A DNA stretch of 39,041 nt, taken from IMG/VR virus record IMGVR_UViG_3300045146_000055, positions 1 to 39,041 of that record, one strand, 5' to 3'. The position numbers and the translations under genes were made by a program. How positions within the stretch are numbered: the first letter of the stretch is position 1; each line of letters starts with the position of its first letter. This stretch comes from a virus. Below, piece after piece: positions 6,656 to 29,987 of this stretch. Under the pieces are notes generated by a model. That model was not told the origin of the DNA. It worked only from the letters and a program-made list of their open reading frames with translations, and made no database searches.

Positions 6656-7516
6656 ATGGCCGTTGACAACCAAACCAAGCAAGAGATCATCAGTCAGCAT
6701 ATTCGCACCGCCGCAGGGCGTCAGCGTTTGGCTGCAAGCATGATTCAGCCCTTGCGCCGTCGCAGGGACTACATGTCGGTAGGTCGTAAGGCGTTCTACG
6801 TGGAAGCACTCCCGGATGGCGCTCTGCCGATCTACGACAAGGACCCGAACATCACGGCTTACGTCGTGGGTGAAGAGGGTGAAAACATCGTGGCCGTCGC
6901 GAAGCCGAAGCGGGTACTGTTCCCGTTGTTCGAGATCGCGTCGAACCCCGAAATTCAACTGACCGAGATCAAGCAGCGTCGTTTCGACCTGATTGAGCGT
7001 TCGGTGGACTTGGGTAAGGCCGAGATTCAGGCGGAAGAAGATCGCAAGGTCTTCGCCGTCATGGATGCTCTGTCGGCTGACCCGACGAATCCGAACCCGG
7101 CGATCCCGGTCACGGGCAACCTGACCGCCAACGCATTGGCCGATGCCTTTGCAAACATCGAGCGCACCGACGTTCGCGTCGCGACTGTGTTCTTGAATGC
7201 GAAGGACTACGCCGACCTGCGTAAGTGGGATCGGGACACGCTCGACATCGAGACGCAGGCTATCCTGCTCAAGACCGGTCTGATGGCTACGCTCTGGGGA
7301 GCTAAGCTCATGGTCAGCCGTATCGTGCCGGAAGGCACCGTGTACGTCTGCGGTGAAGCCGAGTTCTTCGGTCGCGTTCCTGTCAGGACGGAACTGACGG
7401 TCATCTCTGCGGATGATCCGAAGAACCGTCTGATCGGTTTCTCGATCTTCGAGCAACTGGGCATTGGGGCGTACAACCCCTTCGCTCTGCAAGTGCTCCA
7501 GATCACCCGCGTCTAA
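6656..7516 (+). CDS. Major capsid protein, HK97 fold
   Basis: 286 aa. Helical N-arm (residues 1-45), then an E-loop-like region and a P/A-domain pattern: a long helix (IEIKQRRFDLIERSVDLGKAEIQ region), ANIERTDVRVATVFLNAKDYADLRKW, then LMVSRIVPEGTVYVCGEAEFFGRVPVRTEL and a final IGFSIFEQLGIGAYNP, typical of HK97-fold capsid proteins. Good ribosome binding site (AGGAGGG). Followed at once by the strongest terminator of the window, as expected for a highly expressed late gene. Confidence 0.85.
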   Translation: MAVDNQTKQEIISQHIRTAAGRQRLAASMIQPLRRRRDYMSVGRKAFYVEALPDGALPIYDKDPNITAYVVGEEGENIVAVAKPKRVLFPLFEIASNPEIQLTEIKQRRFDLIERSVDLGKAEIQAEEDRKVFAVMDALSADPTNPNPAIPVTGNLTANALADAFANIERTDVRVATVFLNAKDYADLRKWDRDTLDIETQAILLKTGLMATLWGAKLMVSRIVPEGTVYVCGEAEFFGRVPVRTELTVISADDPKNRLIGFSIFEQLGIGAYNPFALQVLQITRV

Positions 7517-22905: not shown

Positions 22906-23241
22906 ATGCGGATCAGAAATATGTTGTCTGTCCTAGCTGACTCGGTATCGGGTAGCAAAGTGTATTGGATGAAGGGTAGGGATGGCCATCTGTCTGTTTG
23001 TGCCAGCGTATCTGGTAAAACAGAGCAGGCTGAAGGGGAAGGGTCCAAACATCTTGCCGCCAGAGCAGAACGACTGGTTGTATCTGGGGCAAGGAAAGCG
23101 CGTCTTGCGTCGATAGAGACTGGCGTTTTGATGGGTGGGGATGGGAACGGAAGGATTGTGGCTACTGCTATTGCCGACATCCCGCCAATGCCGGGCATTG
23201 AGTCTCGGTTGGTGGGTGCCGGAATAGCACAGCTCCGATAG
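22906..23241 (+). CDS. Small orphan, 111 aa
   Basis: ATG 22906 after TAGGAGAT. Starts MRIRNMLSVLADSVSGSK, a variant of the helix-tag theme. Alternating Gly/Ala-rich sequence with VLMGGDGNGRIVATAIADIPPMPG at the end. Last gene before the RNA island. No family recognised. Confidence 0.74.
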   Translation: MRIRNMLSVLADSVSGSKVYWMKGRDGHLSVCASVSGKTEQAEGEGSKHLAARAERLVVSGARKARLASIETGVLMGGDGNGRIVATAIADIPPMPGIESRLVGAGIAQLR

Positions 23242-23242
23242 G

Positions 23243-23284
23243 CTGAAATTTTTCTGGAAAACATTTCAGTCACAGGAGTATAGT
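23243..23284 (+). promoter_or_regulatory. Class C element/promoter upstream of RNA 1
   Basis: Inverted repeat CTGAAAT (23243-23249) / ATTTCAG (23263-23269), then GGAGTATAGT with TATAGT at 23279-23284. A weak -35 (TGGAAA) lies 18 bases upstream of TATAGT, inside the repeat loop. It marks the start of the RNA island. Confidence 0.6.
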
Positions 23285-23553
23285 ATCTTTGTTGCGTGAA
23301 GCACGCTTCAGAGAAGGGATACTTCAGCTAACGGTTCTAAGGTAGCTCAGGTCCAAGCCATCCGAATGGATGCTATGTTCGGAATGGACGACACAGCGAG
23401 TAGCGACAGAGTGGCATCTGTCTGAGAACGGGGAGACCCGGCGCTACGTTTCAGCGGCCATAGCCAGCGCAAGCTGGTTTGGTGCGGAAAGCCATTCAAG
23501 AAAGGCCCTTTTCGATTATCGGTGCCAACGCACTTTCATCTAGGGATGGGAAT
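23285..23553 (+). ncRNA. Structured RNA 1 / leader with 23S-like segment
   Basis: 269 bases without a convincing gene, dense in hairpins: GCGTG-AAG-CACGC (23294-23306), CATCC-GAAT-GGATG (23359-23372), CCAGC-GCAA-GCTGG (23464-23477, GNRA loop). Bases 23329-23346 match 17 of 18 bases of the conserved 23S rRNA segment around E. coli 1926-1943 (TAACGG-T-CCTAAGGTAGC with one change). A weaker likeness to the 2053-2068 segment (ACGG-x-x-AGACCC) follows at about 23427-23438, in the same order as in rRNA. Could be an independent RNA or a long leader of the 23554 gene. Confidence 0.65.
23298..23325 (+). repeat. GAAG...CTTCAG...GGGATACTTC motif, copy 1
   Basis: First and shortest of three copies of an RNA-like motif; the other two (27157-27189 and 27374-27406) share GGC-x-C-x-CTTCAG, then GGGTTACTTC. 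Here GAAG is followed directly by CACGCTTCAG and GGGATACTTC. Confidence 0.55.
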
Positions 23554-24075
23554 ATGAGTCAAACAAGACAGCAGCGGAAGCAGCAGCAAAAGCGCGTCAA
23601 TCGCCAGAAGAAGATCAGAAAGCTCCACAACATCCAGCGCAACTTGGCCGAGCAAAGATTTCGTCTGGATGTCGAGCTGAATGGAGAGTGGCGGATTGGG
23701 GTCAAGCATTGGCGTCACATCAGCTTGATCGAGAAGCACCGTGACGAAACGGAGCGGCTGCGCAGGGCTGGTCAGGAGATTGTTGCCGGTCGGGTGGTGG
23801 ACCTGATGACCGGAAAGATTATCTTGAAGATCGAAGCATCGAAGCCGAAGGGCGCGGCTCCTGATAAGATCGCGGATGGCGTTCGGGCGGCGGATTTCAG
23901 CGCGAACATCGGAGAAGGCGAAGGTCAGCAAGTTGGAAGCAAGGGACCTGAGCCGGTAAACTCGGAAGAACAGCAGAGCCAAGGACCTGCCGGGATCGTG
24001 GAGTCGGAGCAGAAGCCGGAAGGTCCGAAGGGGCCAGTGCAAAAGTTCTTCCGTATTCTGGGTGGTCGTCGGTAA
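23554..24075 (+). CDS. Basic orphan inside RNA island, possible RNA-binding protein
   Basis: 173 aa from ATG 23554 (AGGGATGGG upstream); an in-frame start at 23479 would cover the RNA 1 hairpins and is less likely. The first 35 residues are strongly basic and Gln-rich (TRQQRKQQQKRVNRQKKIR), then a helical region (HRDETERLRRAGQEIVAGRVVDL) and a disordered Pro/Gly/Glu tail ending FFRILGGRR. It is the only sizeable gene between the structured RNAs, so RNA binding is a reasonable guess from charge and location; no domain is recognised. Confidence 0.72.
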   Translation: MSQTRQQRKQQQKRVNRQKKIRKLHNIQRNLAEQRFRLDVELNGEWRIGVKHWRHISLIEKHRDETERLRRAGQEIVAGRVVDLMTGKIILKIEASKPKGAAPDKIADGVRAADFSANIGEGEGQQVGSKGPEPVNSEEQQSQGPAGIVESEQKPEGPKGPVQKFFRILGGRR

Positions 24076-24477
24076 TGTGGTTTTGACCGGGCGATGTGAA
24101 AAGCAAGCCGAGTCATTCCCTTAGCGGGGAAGAAGACAGGGGAAGCGTAGCGTCGGAGAGTGGGTTAGCGCCCATCCCGGTTGTTCTTTGAAATGAAAAG
24201 TCTGTAAAGTAGCTCGTCCATCCGACTGACGACGTGTCGGACAGCGGGTGAAAATCAGGAACGGAAAGAAAGCCGTTCACGGTAGGCCGGAGTGGTAACA
24301 CGCTTCGGCGGACATCCTGCCGTCAATAGTAGGATGCTGCTGCTCCCGTCCGAAAGGATCAGGAGAGACACGGGGCTGACATCGGGTAACACCTAGATGG
24401 CACAGGCTCGTAGGCCAAGACGGAATACCGAAAGGTATGCCTGCCCGATGAAAGAAAGGACAGACCGACAGACTTTT
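24076..24477 (+). ncRNA. Structured RNA 2 with boxA
   Basis: About 400 bases with no convincing gene. A boxA (24182-24193) splits it. Hairpins after it include TCCGAC...GTCGGA (about 24220-24240), GAACGG-AAAGAAAG-CCGTTC (about 24260-24279) and ATACC-GAAA-GGTAT (GNRA loop, about 24425-24438). No good promoter is visible, so it may be co-transcribed with the 23554 gene. A short likeness to 23S (GGGTAACAC, near 24384) is too short to count alone. Confidence 0.6.
24182..24193 (+). promoter_or_regulatory. boxA-type antitermination motif 1
   Basis: TGTTCTTTGAAA, the form found in bacterial rRNA leaders and spacers, where NusB/S10 load to make transcription termination-resistant. Confidence 0.7.
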
Positions 24478-24507
24478 CTCCATATCGCCGGAGACATCTG
24501 GTAATGT
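24478..24507 (+). promoter_or_regulatory. Class A promoter for RNA 3
   Basis: CCATAT 24480-24485 and TAATGT 24502-24507, 16 bases apart, preceded by TTTTCT as at 15638. The boxA at 24513 would sit within the first few transcribed bases, as in rRNA leaders. Confidence 0.78.
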
Positions 24508-24932
24508 GGGTGTGTTCTTTGACAGAATAGGCAGGGGAATGTTGGCTTAGAAGCAGCCAGATAGAAATATCAGTTTTCTCTTGCTGGCGTGATTGCCATA
24601 GAATACAAGGGGGAACTCATCTAAGGAGTGAATCGCTGAGCATTGCTCCGTGAGTGTCATGGGGAAACCTGACTACTCGGAGTAACGCAATAGGGATTGG
24701 GCAGGCCGGACGGAACCGGATGTCTGGACATACGTTGGGTGAAAACCCAACTAGCACCCTTCTCGCAAGGAAGGAGAGGACGCCAGAGTGTACTGCCCTA
24801 TTGTGCGGCAAAGGAGGTTGCGGCTCCCGTGTGGGTGAATAGTCTTTCGTGTGGTAGAAGCATAACCCGCAAGGCCATACTCAATCGCATGGTGGATTCT
24901 TTGGCGTAATAGCACACCTTTGCTTGTTCTGT
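24508..24932 (+). ncRNA. Structured RNA 3 with L11-binding-hairpin-like 23S segment
   Basis: Starts at a class A promoter with boxA TGTTCTTTGACA at 24513-24524. Bases 24539-24559 match exactly, over 21 bases, helix 43 of the 23S GTPase-associated centre (E. coli about 1060-1080; TTGGCTTAGAAGCAGCC core). The upstream context GACAG...CAGG also agrees. Near the 3' end, 24903-24918 (GGCGTAATAGCACACC) resembles helix 44, which follows helix 43 directly in rRNA; here about 340 bases separate them. An internal GTTGGGT-GAAA-ACCCAAC hairpin (24734-24751) lies between. No gene is seen. Probable function: RNA that presents this ribosomal site; see findings. Confidence 0.7.
24513..24524 (+). promoter_or_regulatory. 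boxA-type antitermination motif 2
   Basis: TGTTCTTTGACA directly after the class A promoter. Confidence 0.75.
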
Positions 24933-24944
24933 TGTTCTTTGACA
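24933..24944 (+). promoter_or_regulatory. boxA-type antitermination motif 3
   Basis: TGTTCTTTGACA followed by TTTTGAC; same 12 bases as motifs 2 and 4. It separates RNA 3 from RNA 4 within one likely transcript, as boxA does in 16S-23S spacers. Confidence 0.75.
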
Positions 24945-25498
24945 TTTTGACTGGCAGCGGTACGGCACTAGGAACGTACTTGCGCATTAAAGTCCCAGTG
25001 CGCGACAATAGCCACGGTAGGGTTAGAAGCCCGATGTGGTCGCCGTTGAAAACAACGGCAGCGTGAGTCTGAGACCGTAAAGACGGTGAGTTCAACGCGA
25101 ACCTGACGAGCTTCGTCTGCCTTTCCAGACTACGGTCATATACATGCCCCCGCAAAGGAGCTAACGGGGTCCCGTAAAGGACGCCGGGACGATGGCCGCA
25201 AGTGGGAAGGAGAAACAGACGAGTGGCGGGGAGAGTGGCGACAAGGCATTCCTTCAGGCTGGGCGCATTAAAAATTCCGTGGGCACGGATATATGCCTTG
25301 GGCAAAAATTGTTTCTGCTGTTTGATCCCGAAACGTAGAAGCAGTCAGTAGTGGCGAGCGAACACTGTGGAGAATCGGGGTAGGCAAGTGTGTCGGTGAG
25401 AATCCGGCCTGCCAGTTTTCGTCCAGATGATGTGACTTGCGGCGCACAAGGGTCCTGTGGTAGAGTGTTCTGGACCATTGCACCGTAAACTTTTTGAT
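24945..25498 (+). ncRNA. Structured RNA 4 with 23S domain I-like module
   Basis: About 550 bases rich in hairpins: GCCGTTG-AAAA-CAACGGC (25042-25059), ACCGT-AAAG-ACGGT (about 25074-25087), GACGA-GCT-TCGTC (about 25106-25119), CCGTG-GG-CACGG (about 25278-25290), TGCC-TTG-GGCA (about 25294-25304). Bases 25346-25363 match 17 of 18 bases of the 23S domain I segment CAGTAGCGGCGAGCGAAC, and are closed by CAGT/ACTG where E. coli has CCCC/GGGG. It leads directly into the initiator tRNA. Size, ornateness and the tRNA recall the phage-associated GOLLD and ROOL RNAs, but I cannot confirm membership. Confidence 0.65.
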
Positions 25499-25575
25499 CG
25501 CGGGAGGGAAGGCCGTGGTGGTCTCGTGGGGTTCATAACCCTATAAGTCGGGTTCGAGTCCCGGTCCCGCTACCA
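25499..25575 (+). tRNA. Initiator tRNA-fMet (CAU)
   Basis: 77 bases with encoded CCA. Acceptor CGCGGGA/TCCCGCT leaves C1xU72 unpaired, the hallmark of bacterial initiators (usually C1xA72). Anticodon stem-loop TGGGG-TTCATAA-CCCTA gives CAU and three consecutive G:C pairs (29-31 with 39-41), the other initiator determinant. T-arm TCGGG-TTCGAGT-CCCGG is regular. The D-arm is one base longer than in E. coli. It lies inside a run of structured RNA rather than in a tRNA cluster. Confidence 0.92.
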
Positions 25576-26125
25576 ATTTGAAGATGCGTTCGCCTGTCGC
25601 ACGGGCCTGTGATGGGTCGTCAAACAAGGCATGTCGAGCGTGAGACATGTCATCAGTGAATGGGGAAGGCGCATCTCGCAGAAGACGTGGAGCAGGAAAT
25701 CGATTACCGGCAAACCTGCTCTTCGTAATGCGGCAAGGCGGTTCTAAGCCCGCCTGTGGGCAAGCGTACTGTTGGGCCGGAAGGCAGGCATGTCGTCGGA
25801 ACTCAGCAGATGGTAGAATAGGCCGCTAATAGCTCACGAAGGTTCGGTCAACGCCACGACGAAGGCGCTAGTCATAAGGTTGGCGGTAGCCGGGCTGCTT
25901 GGATGGTGGAGTCGGCGGTGGAAACATCGCCCCCAAAAGAACCGCTTGCGGGAACCCTGAGCCGCAGTGATCTGTGGCTGGCTCTGAAGGGCTGCGGGAA
26001 TGAACCTACCGCTACTACGCGCAGCGAAAGCTGCTAGGGACTTGTCGGCCCAAATGAACCAACCGGCAAGGGTCGGGTTTGCTGGTCTGGCTGTGAAATC
26101 TTCGCCCGGATGGAGCCAGACCAGC
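25576..26125 (+). ncRNA. Structured RNA 5 downstream of initiator tRNA
   Basis: 550 bases with no gene. A first domain is closed by AGATGCG (25582-25588) and CGCATCT (25670-25676) with an inner CATGTC/GACATG stem. The 3' end is a perfect 12-bp stem GCTGGTCTGGCT (26081-26092) / AGCCAGACCAGC (26114-26125), which may end the transcript just before the next promoter. Bases 25825-25837 (GCTAATAGCTCAC) again resemble the 23S helix 44 loop. It may be the second half of one large RNA split by the tRNA. Confidence 0.6.
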
Positions 26126-26131
26126 AACAAT

Positions 26132-26161
26132 TTCCATATTGATGACAGACTGTGGTAATGT
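26132..26161 (+). promoter_or_regulatory. Class A promoter for tmRNA
   Basis: CCATAT 26134-26139 and TAATGT 26156-26161, spacing 16. A leader of about 90 bases follows, with hairpin TGAACGGA/TCCGTTCA (26169-26176, 26194-26201) and boxA 4. Confidence 0.75.
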
Positions 26162-26244
26162 GGTCGCATGAACGGATAGATGGGCATCGGTATTCCGTTC
26201 ATTGAAGCGGGTTGCCTAGCCGCCGAAAGGTAGGAGCGATGTCT

Positions 26245-26256
26245 TGTTCTTTGACA
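26245..26256 (+). promoter_or_regulatory. boxA-type antitermination motif 4
   Basis: TGTTCTTTGACA ending one base before the mature tmRNA 5' end. Confidence 0.72.
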
Positions 26257-26340
26257 TGGGCGCGATACGGTTTCGACGGGTGAAGTTGAAATCGAGCGAC
26301 ACGCCGAGTAATGTCTGGTTGGACTCGTTAATCTATCCCA

Positions 26341-26436
26341 GACGACAACACAAACGCCAAGAGAACTCTTGGTAAGGTGATTCGCGGTGTCTTCGGTGCT
26401 GCTGATGAAGCGGTGCCGATGCTCGCGGCTGCGTAA
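26341..26436 (+). other. tmRNA tag-peptide reading frame
   Basis: DDNTNAKRTLGKVIRG then VFGAADEAVPMLAAA and TAA. The two other frames close after about 11-13 codons. The D-D-N start resembles A-N-D-N type tags and the hydrophobic A-A-A end fits protease recognition. At about 31 residues it is roughly three times the usual length; long tags are known from some phage tmRNAs. Confidence 0.7.
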
Positions 26437-26650
26437 GCAGCCCACCGTCACGGTGTAAGACTACGTGAACCGCCGTGGCTCAAAGCACGTGGTTGACAGC
26501 TTGGAAAGACAGCGATACCGGAGCTGGTCATTCCGGGGAAGGATGGACCAAAGTTGCCGGTTGACAACCGGATAGACCAAGCCCGTGGTCGAGAATATCG
26601 GGCGAAGCGTGTGTATGTTCGGCGTAGACTCATTCGGACGGGAGTTCAAT

Positions 26651-27072
26651 CCAAAGGTTGCCTTGCTTGGCGACAAGCAAGGAAAAGAGTGCTCAAACGG
26701 TGAACGCTAAATCCGTAAGGATATGCCAACGCCGTCGAGTGGGCTGGAAACAGCGAAGCTCGCTAGAGACTTATAGGCACCTTCAACCAAAGCTGGTTAT
26801 GGTGTACTAGGATGGAAGAATCTTTCTCGAATCTGAGTTTGGCTTCGCGCATGGCGGCGGTGTATTTCCCGTTCCGTGGAGTAACCTTGTGGTAAACATG
26901 GGCGAGAAGGAACGCCGAGTCAGGAAGATCGTTCCTTCGCCATCGATGATGCCGGTCAGATAACCGAGATCGAATTTTTTCATAAATGCACTCCTTCTGG
27001 ATGTAGGTTATACCTACAGCATGTCCAGAAGAAGGAATAGTCCAGACCATTACGAAAGTAAAGGATAATCTG
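26651..27072 (+). mobile_element. Group I intron in tmRNA T-loop
   Basis: 422 bases. P1: exon CAAT pairs with intron GGTTG to give a U-G wobble at the 5' splice site (after T26650). P2: CCTTGCTT (26661-26668) / AAGCAAGG (26675-26682). P4-like AAACGG...CCGT near 26695-26733. The R-like element GCTAGAGACTTATAGG (about 26762-26776) and S-like AAGGAATAGTCC (about 27032-27043) can form P7 (GACT/AGTC). A 3' hairpin TGTAGGT-TAT-ACCTACA precedes. The last intron base G27072 fits the conserved terminal G. Tag and acceptor are restored after splicing. Confidence 0.88.
26807..26983 (-). pseudogene. LAGLIDADG homing endonuclease remnant, antisense in intron
   Basis: 58 codons on the minus strand with AAGGAG seven bases before the ATG. 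Begins MKKFDLGYLTGIIDGEGTI, a full first dodecapeptide motif (LTGIIDGEG), continues FLTRRSFSPMF, then becomes Pro/Ser-rich and stops. Real enzymes of this family need about 120-300 residues. It is therefore a decayed or deleted endonuclease, with the intron now probably immobile on its own. Antisense placement relative to the host RNA is unusual. Confidence 0.75.
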
Positions 27073-27099
27073 TCTCCCCGCGTCCACCAATTTCAAGGT

Positions 27100-27141
27100 C
27101 ACGAAAAATAGTTGCAAACAATTTCGTGGCGTGAGTATAGT
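27100..27141 (+). promoter_or_regulatory. Class C element/promoter after tmRNA
   Basis: Inverted repeat CACGAAA (27100-27106) / TTTCGTG (27122-27128), then GAGTATAGT with TATAGT 27136-27141 and TTGCAA 18 bases upstream of it. It likely drives the short RNA or message ahead of the second tRNA. Confidence 0.65.
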
Positions 27142-27156
27142 GTAGTGAAAGTGAAC

Positions 27157-27189
27157 GAAGTCAGGCTCACTTCAGTTCTGGGTTACTTC
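27157..27189 (+). repeat. GAAG...CTTCAG...GGGTTACTTC motif, copy 2
   Basis: Lies about 15 bases after the class C promoter. Agrees with copy 3 at roughly 27 of 33 positions; GAAGT/ACTTC can pair as a hairpin with either downstream CTTC. Confidence 0.6.
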
Positions 27190-27241
27190 ATAAAGCAACC
27201 AGAAGTCTCCGGCGGCGACAAGGATCGCCGTTAGTAGGAGA

Positions 27242-27355
27242 ATGACGGCCTGCAAAGACAGGATGGAGTTCAGGGAAGACTGGATGGCAGCATGGGAAGA
27301 CATGCAAATGGCAGCTCGGAAAGACGGCTTTCCCGGAGCGCATATCGGAGCTTGA
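27242..27355 (+). CDS. Small protein, 37 aa (tentative)
   Basis: ATG 27242 is preceded by TAGTAGGAGA, a good ribosome binding site. The peptide has an acidic/aromatic repeat-like helix (EFREDWMAAWEDMQMAARKD) and ends GAHIGA. It follows motif copy 2 and a short hairpin-rich leader. Could instead be part of a structured RNA; only the ribosome binding site and amphipathic pattern support coding. Confidence 0.5.
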   Translation: MTACKDRMEFREDWMAAWEDMQMAARKDGFPGAHIGA

Positions 27356-27373
27356 TGTAGTTCTGTGAGTGTT

Positions 27374-27406
27374 GAAGTATGGCACGCTTCAGTTTGGGGT
27401 TACTTC
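27374..27406 (+). repeat. GAAG...CTTCAG...GGGTTACTTC motif, copy 3
   Basis: GAAGTATGGCACGCTTCAG then TTTGGGGTTACTTC. Ends about 50 bases before the second tRNA and may be part of its primary transcript. Confidence 0.6.
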
Positions 27407-27454
27407 TGCCTTTCATAGAAATACCCCAGACGGTCATCGGTGTCGGCTTTTGAT

Positions 27455-27585: not shown

Positions 27586-28233
27586 ATGAAGCCAGTTTTG
27601 AAGCCGAACATTATGGTCTCACAGGACGAAGTAGACTTGGTAATCGGAGAGCTTGACCGGGTACTCAGGCTGGGCCTGCCGGGAGACGTGGTAGAGTTCG
27701 GGTGTAATGTGGGGAATACGTCGGTGTTCTTACAGGATGCGTTGCAGCGGAATGGAAGCCAGAAAAAGCTGGTGTGCATTGACTCGTTTCAGGGGTTCCC
27801 GGAGACGGAGTCGATTGACGAAGACTGCTTCAAGAAGGGTGGTCTGGCAGTACAGCAGGCAGAGCTGCTGGGTCATTTCGACGAGTTTCAGCTTCCGCAT
27901 CCCGTGGTCGTACAGTCGTGGATCGAAGAGCTTCGAGCGAAGGATTTGCCGGATGAGATTTGCTTCGCGTTTGTAGACTGTGACATCTACAAACCGGCAA
28001 AGTGGGCATTCGGATTGGCGTGGATCAGGATGCCGGTAGGCGGGTCGGTTGTGTTTCACGACATCTGGGCGAAGGGAATCCAGCGGGCGATCTGGGAAGG
28101 TCGTCAAGGGATGTCGCGGGAAGAGATTGCATGTTGTCACAGGTCGTACATTGTCAGGAAGGTGGATTCGGTGCCCGTGGTGGGCAAAATTGGCGGCGAT
28201 AATGCCGCACTTCAGGAAGGGGTGAGACAGTGA
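27586..28233 (+). CDS. TylF/MycF-like O-methyltransferase family protein
   Basis: 215 aa with AAAGGAG before the ATG. VVEFGCNVGNTSVFLQ near residues 36-51 is the SAM site, VCIDSFQGFPETESIDED near 66-83 and FVDCDIYKPAKWAFGLAW near 128-145 with GGSVVFHDIW are typical of the macrocin-O-methyltransferase (TylF) family. Family members methylate sugar hydroxyls in macrolides; here the substrate is unknown and could be a glycan from the GT2 enzymes or an RNA ribose. Overlaps the Ro60 gene by four bases, so the two are co-translated. Confidence 0.85.
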   Translation: MKPVLKPNIMVSQDEVDLVIGELDRVLRLGLPGDVVEFGCNVGNTSVFLQDALQRNGSQKKLVCIDSFQGFPETESIDEDCFKKGGLAVQQAELLGHFDEFQLPHPVVVQSWIEELRAKDLPDEICFAFVDCDIYKPAKWAFGLAWIRMPVGGSVVFHDIWAKGIQRAIWEGRQGMSREEIACCHRSYIVRKVDSVPVVGKIGGDNAALQEGVRQ

Positions 28234-29987
28234 GTACGTTCAAGACGGTAGCACGGCAGAAGTCGGCGGCTGCATTGCAGCCGAGTCATGCTCCGAACGC
28301 ATCGGTCAACCGGGCGGGCGGAGTGGCATTCGAGATTAGCGATCCATCACTGAAGCTCCTGACCATGACAGGCGGGGCTTTCTTTGCGGAGCCGAAGTTC
28401 TACAACGGCGACCAGTGTGTGCCGAAGCGTGGAACGGGCGGCAAGTTTGAAAAGCTGGCCGAGCGTCTGGAGATCGTGGGTGACAAGCTGAAGGGCGTTG
28501 TGTCTTGCGATGAGCTGGACGAGACGGCTCGCGAAGTTGTGGCGACGGCTCTGGATGTGGCACGGGGCAATAACCCGGAAGACATTCTGGCGATTGCTAA
28601 TTGGCTGCGTAACGAGATGAACATCCGGCTGACGCCGCAGGTGTTGCTGGTGCTCGCTTCGCGGATGGACAACACGAAGTCTCTGGTGCGCAAGTACGCT
28701 CCGTGCATCGTGAAGCGCCCGGACGAAGTGAAGAGCTGCCTGTTGATTCACCGGTTCTTCTTTGGGTTGAAGGACCTAAAGAACGGTCTGGCCAACGGTC
28801 TAGCCGACGCGCTGGGGAAGTTCGGGGAGCGGGGACTGATGAAGTACGACGATCCGGGATTCCCGACGTGGAAGGATGTGCTGTGCTGGCTGCCGCGTAA
28901 GGCGGGCTGGCCGCTGAAGGCGGAAGTGGCGCAGTATTTCATCACCGGGAAGATTGGTGATCCGGCGAAGGTTCCGGTCATCGCGGCCCGCAAGGAGCTG
29001 GTGAAGTGCAAGGCGTTTGACGCCGAAGCTCGCAAGCTGGCCCGTGCGTCAATGGTGAACTGGGAAGTTCTGCTTTCGCAGTTTGGCAACGACAAGCAGG
29101 CGGTCTGGGAGTTCTTGGTTCAGGAAGACTTGCTGGGTTACATGGCTATGCTGCGTAACCTTCGCAACATTCTGGAAGCCAAGGCTGGCCGGACGGTCAT
29201 TCAGAAGGTGTCGGACAAGCTGTCCAACCACGATGAAGTCGTGAAGTCGAAGCAGCTCCCGTTCCGGTTCCTGTCGGCGCTGAAGGCGCTGGAGGGGATG
29301 CAGGGCGAGTTCGATCAGGCCGACGTGTCTGAGCTGATGGCGGCTGTGGAGCTGGCTTCCAACGAAGCCTGTGCCAACATCCCGGTTCTGCCGGGGACAA
29401 CAGTCATCTTCGCGGATGTGTCGCAGTCGATGCGCCGTAACAGGGTGTCGGACAAGTCAGAAGTCAACTGCGCGGATGCGGCAACGGTGCTGTGTGGTAT
29501 CGTGGCCAAGGTCGCTGAGCGCCCGTATGTCGTGGCGTTCGGTTCGGATGTGGCTCCGGTGTTGTTCTCGAAGAACGACACGGTGCTGCGGATCGCCAAG
29601 CGGACGCTGGATGCGGACACTAAGGGGTGCTCAACCAACGGGCACAAGTGCGTGGAGTGGCTGATCCAGAAGAAGCTGGTGCCGGATCGTGTGGTCTTCC
29701 TGTCTGACATGCAGATGTGGAATGACAACGATTCCAACGACGATCAGATTTGTCTTTCCGACGTGTGGGACAAGTACCTGAAGTCGGCGGCTGGCGCGAA
29801 GAATACGTGGGCGCACTGCGTCCATGTCAACGGCTACGGCGACAACGTCGTCGAAGGGGACCGGATAAACATGGTTGCCGGGTTCTCGGAGAAGGTCGTG
29901 ACGATGATGCTTCAGACGGAAGGCGTCATTGGCGGAAAGGCTCTGCCGACAGTGGAGCAGGTCCGTGAGAAGTGGACCGTGAAGTAA
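28230..29987 (+). CDS. Ro60/TROVE-domain RNA-binding protein
   Basis: 585 aa, GTG start coupled to the methyltransferase. N-terminal TROVE domain of HEAT-like helices (about 20-385; e.g. IANWLRNEMNIRLTPQVLLVLAS, KDVLCWLPRKAG) and a C-terminal von Willebrand A domain (about 388-570) with MIDAS motifs FADVSQSM near 394, a Thr/Ser region CSTNGHK, and FLSDMQMW near 490. This is the full layout of vertebrate Ro60 and bacterial Rsr. The ring binds misfolded RNA 3' ends through its hole and Y RNAs on its outside; in bacteria it works with nucleases on rRNA and other RNA. It directly follows the RNA island. Confidence 0.92.
   Translation: MSTFKTVARQKSAAALQPSHAPNASVNRAGGVAFEISDPSLKLLTMTGGAFFAEPKFYNGDQCVPKRGTGGKFEKLAERLEIVGDKLKGVVSCDELDETAREVVATALDVARGNNPEDILAIANWLRNEMNIRLTPQVLLVLASRMDNTKSLVRKYAPCIVKRPDEVKSCLLIHRFFFGLKDLKNGLANGLADALGKFGERGLMKYDDPGFPTWKDVLCWLPRKAGWPLKAEVAQYFITGKIGDPAKVPVIAARKELVKCKAFDAEARKLARASMVNWEVLLSQFGNDKQAVWEFLVQEDLLGYMAMLRNLRNILEAKAGRTVIQKVSDKLSNHDEVVKSKQLPFRFLSALKALEGMQGEFDQADVSELMAAVELASNEACANIPVLPGTTVIFADVSQSMRRNRVSDKSEVNCADAATVLCGIVAKVAERPYVVAFGSDVAPVLFSKNDTVLRIAKRTLDADTKGCSTNGHKCVEWLIQKKLVPDRVVFLSDMQMWNDNDSNDDQICLSDVWDKYLKSAAGAKNTWAHCVHVNGYGDNVVEGDRINMVAGFSEKVVTMMLQTEGVIGGKALPTVEQVREKWTVK

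Follow-up and report, generated by a model that had tools for sequence, protein, structure and literature searches.

The closest described systems are the group I introns of bacterial tmRNA genes. A survey of such genes reports 883 unique intron-form tmRNAs from 21 phyla, in which the introns occupy four subsites and are mostly found at position 7 (PMC11915505). According to the same survey, LAGLIDADG genes are present in 23 of the first 844 tmRNA introns, and 19 of these 23 are located in the P7.1 region (PMC11915505). The tmRNA intron of C. botulinum has been shown to self-splice in vitro (PMC2729099). A preliminary description of the locus presented here had stated that T-loop group I introns are known in some bacteria; the insert described below belongs to the family of these bacterial tmRNA introns and shares their position.

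The window, i.e. the whole stretch of 39,041 bases that was analysed, carries a phage tmRNA gene at 26258-27089 (+), which is interrupted by an insert of 422 nt at 26651-27072. The ends of the gene (GGGCGCG at 26258 and ACCA at 27089) were recognized by inspection of the sequence. The insertion follows nucleotide 6 of the T-loop, which is broken as TTCAAT/T and is restored by excision, as at position 7. The 5' exon (26258-26650, +) comprises the 5' strand of the acceptor, a D-like part, the tag frame and the 5' half of the T-arm, and ends with GACGGGAGTTCAAT at 26650. The 3' exon, TCTCCCCGCGTCCACCA, occupies positions 27073-27089 (+). The joined halves form an acceptor stem GGGCGCG/CGCGTCC, a complete T-arm GGGAG-TTCAATT-CTCCC and an encoded CCA, and the insert boundaries given in the preliminary description are exact. 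Rfam model RF00023 recognizes the 5' exon as tmRNA with 58.3 bits and is unable to place the 3' end. ARAGORN finds no tmRNA in the 39,041-base window or in the unspliced gene. After removal of 26651-27072 it reports a complete tmRNA of 410 nt with a tRNA-like domain, a resume site and a tag frame, AKRTLGKVIRGVFGAADEAVPMLAAA, that ends in a stop. This agrees with the earlier proposal that excision would create the TTCAATT loop and a working tmRNA. Because ARAGORN also accepts junctions displaced by 1-2 nt, the exact junction was taken from the U·G rule of P1, the terminal G and homology.

The insert has the anatomy of a group I intron. The internal guide GUUG (26657-26660) pairs with the exon nucleotides CAAU (26647-26650) to form P1, with a U·G pair between exon position -1 and the guide (U26650·G26657) at the splice site, plus C1-G6. 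The guide tracks the exon: TTCAAT exons (the window and the viral contig L015) are accompanied by GUUG, and most TTCGAT exons by GUCG. P2 is a hairpin with a GCGA loop (26661-26682), whose six inner pairs form in 24-25 of 25 introns and show as many as five pair types. The two strands of P3, GAGUGC (26687-26692) and GCACUC (26988-26993), pair with compensatory changes in every sequence that has letters on both sides, the outer P3 pairs of seven Bacillota sequences falling in gaps of the MAFFT alignment. A different P3, GUGCU/GGCAC directly after P7, was considered and dropped, as the relatives show GAGUGC/GCACUC covarying. P4 (26697-26702/26730-26735) surrounds P5 (26706-26726). P6 (CGAG/CUCG) with P6a and its GAAA cap (26736-26762) is paired in 24-25 of 25 introns and also displays compensatory changes. 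The 5' strand of P7, G(A)GACU with a bulged A (26766-26771), pairs with AGUCC (27039-27043) in 25 of 25. P7 and the 3' strand of P3 are held apart by a P7.1/P7.2 region, which the preliminary description did not contain; the P7.1 hairpin (26778-26804) is visible in the sequence and in the MFE fold. The P8 hairpin CUUCUGG...CCAGAAG (26994-27031) and J8/7, AAGGAAU (27032-27038), were assigned from sequence and alignment. P9 is the hairpin UUAC-GAAA-GUAA (27050-27061), and the covarying pairs of P9.0 (AGA, 27044-27046, with UCU, 27069-27071) are followed by the terminal G (27072), which is found in 29 of 29 introns among those listed. P5 bears a CUAA/UAUG receptor of the 11-nt type, which we take to form the textbook tetraloop-receptor contact with the cognate GAAA of L9. 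A convincing P10 was looked for in the intron and none was found.

Over 25 introns, compensatory changes occur in P2, P3, P4, P6, P9 and P9.0 and P7 is unbroken throughout, as judged by our own count of pairs on the MAFFT alignment, made without a shuffle control. The original description of P1 with its U·G wobble, of P2, of P7 and of the terminal G is borne out by the sequence.

The identity of the insert was also examined with a covariance model, R1, which represents the 5' 132 positions of 23 tmRNA introns from bacteria and other viral contigs, the window being excluded. R1 scores the insert with 113.8 bits (E-value 7.4e-31) over positions 26649-26777; one long-range pairing of its RNAalifold structure, GGUC/GACU, is probably false, and the score comes chiefly from other positions. 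The R1 match, the helices and the covariation reveal the core of a group I intron (P3-P8 with P4-P6 and P7), and the extent of the intron, 26651-27072 (+), is given by R1, by end-to-end alignment with tmRNA introns and by the empty sites of its relatives. The E-value and the core helices support, at the level of sequence, the initial reading of the insert as a group I intron that interrupts the T-loop of a phage tmRNA. R1 has no second match on either strand of the 39-kb window and no match in contigs L003-L009. The region 25801-26260 had been considered as a second group I core and was dropped, as R1 finds a single intron in the window. The Infernal search for a group I intron suggested in the preliminary description was negative: Rfam model RF00028 does not match the insert even at E 10. 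This failure is uninformative, because RF00028 also misses the SPO1-type DNA polymerase intron L011, a control searched up to E 1; it does detect the introns L012 and L013. ARAGORN and the Rfam group I model thus both miss the split tmRNA gene, which documents a blind spot.

R1 detects the phage group I introns L011, L012 (both SPO1-type DNA polymerase) and L013 (RNAP2 region) as well, with E-values of 9e-8 to 1e-10. These share with the window intron the P4-P5 block, through which L011 was located, the 11-nt-type receptor and the kind of core, but they are situated within or next to protein genes rather than in tmRNA and score 35-45 bits, compared with 114 for the window intron.

A degenerate antisense gene for a LAGLIDADG homing endonuclease (26800-26983, -), overlooked in the preliminary description, is located between P7 and the 3' strand of P3, within the P7.1/P7.2 region. 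Tblastn places its N-terminus, its C-terminal part and its last residues in three frames, and the middle is lost. Intact antisense LAGLIDADG genes occupy the same place in L016, L022, L042, L062 and L071, where they match LAGLIDADG_3 with E-values down to 3e-5. When a profile of these five genes was compared with the six frames of the window, just two frames matched, both within the intron (E 2.4e-7 and 0.0058). The window copy therefore descends from the intact antisense endonuclease family of the related introns; it has no intact frame, and the motif GIIDGEG is nonetheless present. As the pieces lie in three frames and the middle is gone, the intron formerly bore a mobile gene that has since been lost.

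Relatives of the intron were sought with a scan pattern that combines the tmRNA T-arm and the P4-P5 block, run over viral contigs and bacterial genomes. The scan recovered about 20 tmRNA genes of bacteria, together with several viral contigs, in which the T-loop is interrupted at this same position and the T-arm can be restored; the pattern skews the sample towards P4-P5 blocks resembling that of the window. The bacterial matches come from Gammaproteobacteria, including Thiotrichaceae and Contendobacter, and from Bacillota, Bdellovibrionota and Flavobacteriaceae. Alignment, R1 and a tree establish that the window intron is homologous to the bacterial position-7 members. They resemble it in their site (TTCRAT/T), core, U·G pair at position -1 and terminal G and, in 19 of the 23 published cases with a gene, in the LAGLIDADG gene of the P7.1 region. 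The window intron differs in being located in a phage tmRNA, in its endonuclease gene, which is broken and, as a possible further difference, antisense, and in its length of 422 nt, the founding set averaging 293 nt.

The introns of Thiotrichaceae and Contendobacter (L037, L042, L045, L046, L062 and L071) are nearest in sequence, those of Thiotrichaceae being the closest with up to 75% identity. Unlike the window, all six are on bacterial genome contigs, and L042, L062 and L071 retain an intact antisense endonuclease in the loop where the window copy is broken. In the intron tree, the window intron is likewise nearest to the Thiotrichaceae introns, without support; it has no supported sister, its fork is open and its branch is long (0.45), on account of which it may have drifted. 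Transfer in either direction would agree with this placement. The viral introns of L015 (37-279, -), L016 (899-1570)/L021, L018/L022 (L022: 798-1471, -) and L019 (820-1065, -) have the same site and core as the window intron but are not the closest to it in the tree. L016 and L022 carry their intact antisense LAGLIDADG genes in P7.2. The Flavobacteriaceae introns (L025:119-775 and L068:676-1333) differ in P4 and continue for a long stretch beyond P9, and a Flavobacteriaceae-like T-loop intron with a reading frame after P9 is found on the viral contig L014 (3533-4201). The Flavobacteriaceae introns are possibly a second tmRNA intron lineage at the same T-loop position.

DNA similarity searches of named phages gave no match to the whole gene, and with the intron core the matches to other phage introns were confined to short blocks. 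Named phage genomes searched with four intron sources, including L046, L016 and L051, gave no tmRNA intron, and plasmids gave no match. No report of phage tmRNA introns was found in the literature searched, which was mostly non-subscription; the 79 phage tmRNAs of PMC11915505 may include some. A phage copy next to an rRNA-mimic array had been regarded as unusual. A phage copy is less so, since this intron family is also present in the tmRNA genes of other viral contigs, and because there are several of them the insert is best read, from its sequence, as a phage member of the known position-7 family and not as a new kind, its novelty residing chiefly in its phage location.

The tmRNA gene lies within a gene-poor region of about 4 kb (23240-27450), which also holds two tRNA-Met, a Twister-P5 ribozyme and unassigned RNAs. 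A boxA-like element, TTGTTCTTTGACA (26244-26256, +), ends one base before the tmRNA. This sequence occurs four times in the window, where 0.87 occurrences are expected, and all four are within the RNA array (24181-24193, 24512-24524, 24932-24944 and 26244-26256). A similar sequence, TGTTCTTTGATA, is found directly 5' of the tmRNA in L004, L005 and L009. As TTGTTCTTTGACA resembles the boxA of rRNA leaders, the array may use host rRNA antitermination. The stretches 23329-23346 and 25344-25363, in RNAs of the array, have one mismatch each to TAACGGTCCTAAGGTAGC and GTCAGTAGCGGCGAGCGAAC, which we take to be conserved 23S rRNA motifs, and have no Rfam LSU match; they are probably what had earlier been called an rRNA-mimic array. 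The putative self-cleaving Twister-P5 ribozyme (25677-25753) scores 38.0 bits, barely above the cut-off, and another is found at L005:4182-4270. Near the array, a gene for a TylF-like methyltransferase (27586-28233) is followed by a gene for a Ro60-like protein (28230-29987; TROVE E 5e-21, vWA_Ro60). It is possible that the Ro60-like protein binds RNAs of the array.

Related contigs were retrieved through this Ro60-like gene with its TROVE domain, which lies 3' of the tmRNA. L004, L005, L006 and L009 have a tmRNA of the same layout that is uninterrupted, the genes of L005 and L009 being identical to each other, and these four contigs thus provide the empty site. L007 and L008 showed no tmRNA. 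L002 is not an independent replicate, because it represents the same virus (100% identity over 4,361 bases). In L003, this end of the tmRNA gene (6850-7455) is occupied by a different insertion of some 560 bases, which bears an antisense HNH_3 gene (E 1.4e-8). It is bordered on both sides by a direct repeat of 25 bases comprising the T-arm and acceptor end, and the encoded CCA is missing from the first copy.

Given the observed anatomy, homology, covariation, empty sites and endonuclease remains, it is very probable that the insert is a position-7 group I intron that would splice, that arrived by transfer, and whose endonuclease has since decayed. The insert of L003 demonstrates that a related phage can hold a mobile element of another kind at this end of the gene. 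It is extremely improbable that the window insert is likewise a non-intron element, integrated in the T-arm and not removed from the RNA. In L003 the 5' border retains, through the repeat, an entire T-arm and acceptor end, whereas the window lacks any such repeat, its 5' half breaks off within the loop and a full group I core is present. It is also quite unlikely that the intron is a dead relic, with a recognizable core that no longer splices, and the tmRNA either a pseudogene or not produced. The broken endonuclease gene and the long branch would fit such a relic, but every core helix, the bulge of P7, the terminal G and the contact of L9 with P5 are intact and the guide matches the exon. The tmRNA exons, the tag frame and its stop are intact too, and introns of this type usually keep splicing after losing their endonuclease.

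The contig itself might be bacterial, in which case the intron would be just another bacterial tmRNA intron. The similarity to Thiotrichaceae introns points in this direction, and the 70.8-kb L002 record yielded no large terminase. However, one ORF of the window matches a head maturation protease family, the gene neighborhood is common to other viral contigs, among which the L005 record has a large terminase (E 3.9e-28), and the L016, L018, L019 and L021 records, which hold introns of the same family, carry large terminases too. A bacterial origin of the contig is therefore very unlikely.

For the position-7 intron, we infer the following course of splicing, homing and tmRNA activity. The precursor tmRNA would fold the P3-P9 core, and a guanosine bound in P7 would attack after U26650, at the U·G pair of P1. 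The freed 5' exon would then attack after G27072, and the exons would be joined, restoring the TTCAATT loop so that the tmRNA could be processed and charged. The intron itself would have entered an intron-less phage tmRNA by horizontal transfer, the DNA step probably being carried out by the antisense LAGLIDADG endonuclease of the P7.2 loop, cutting intron-less tmRNA genes. The endonuclease gene would have decayed later by deletion of its middle and shifts of frame, leaving an intron that probably splices and would be unable to home on its own.

The phage tmRNA, judging by its split gene, would need splicing before it could take part in ribosome rescue. We suggest tentatively that large tmRNA-bearing phages, several unrelated lineages of which would hold position-7 introns, might be the carriers that move these introns between bacterial groups. 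The tmRNA introns have a patchy distribution over 21 bacterial phyla, for which the phage copies, some with an intact endonuclease, offer a possible carrier. If this is true, an intact phage LAGLIDADG endonuclease would cut the intron-less tmRNA genes of the host or of rival phages during infection.
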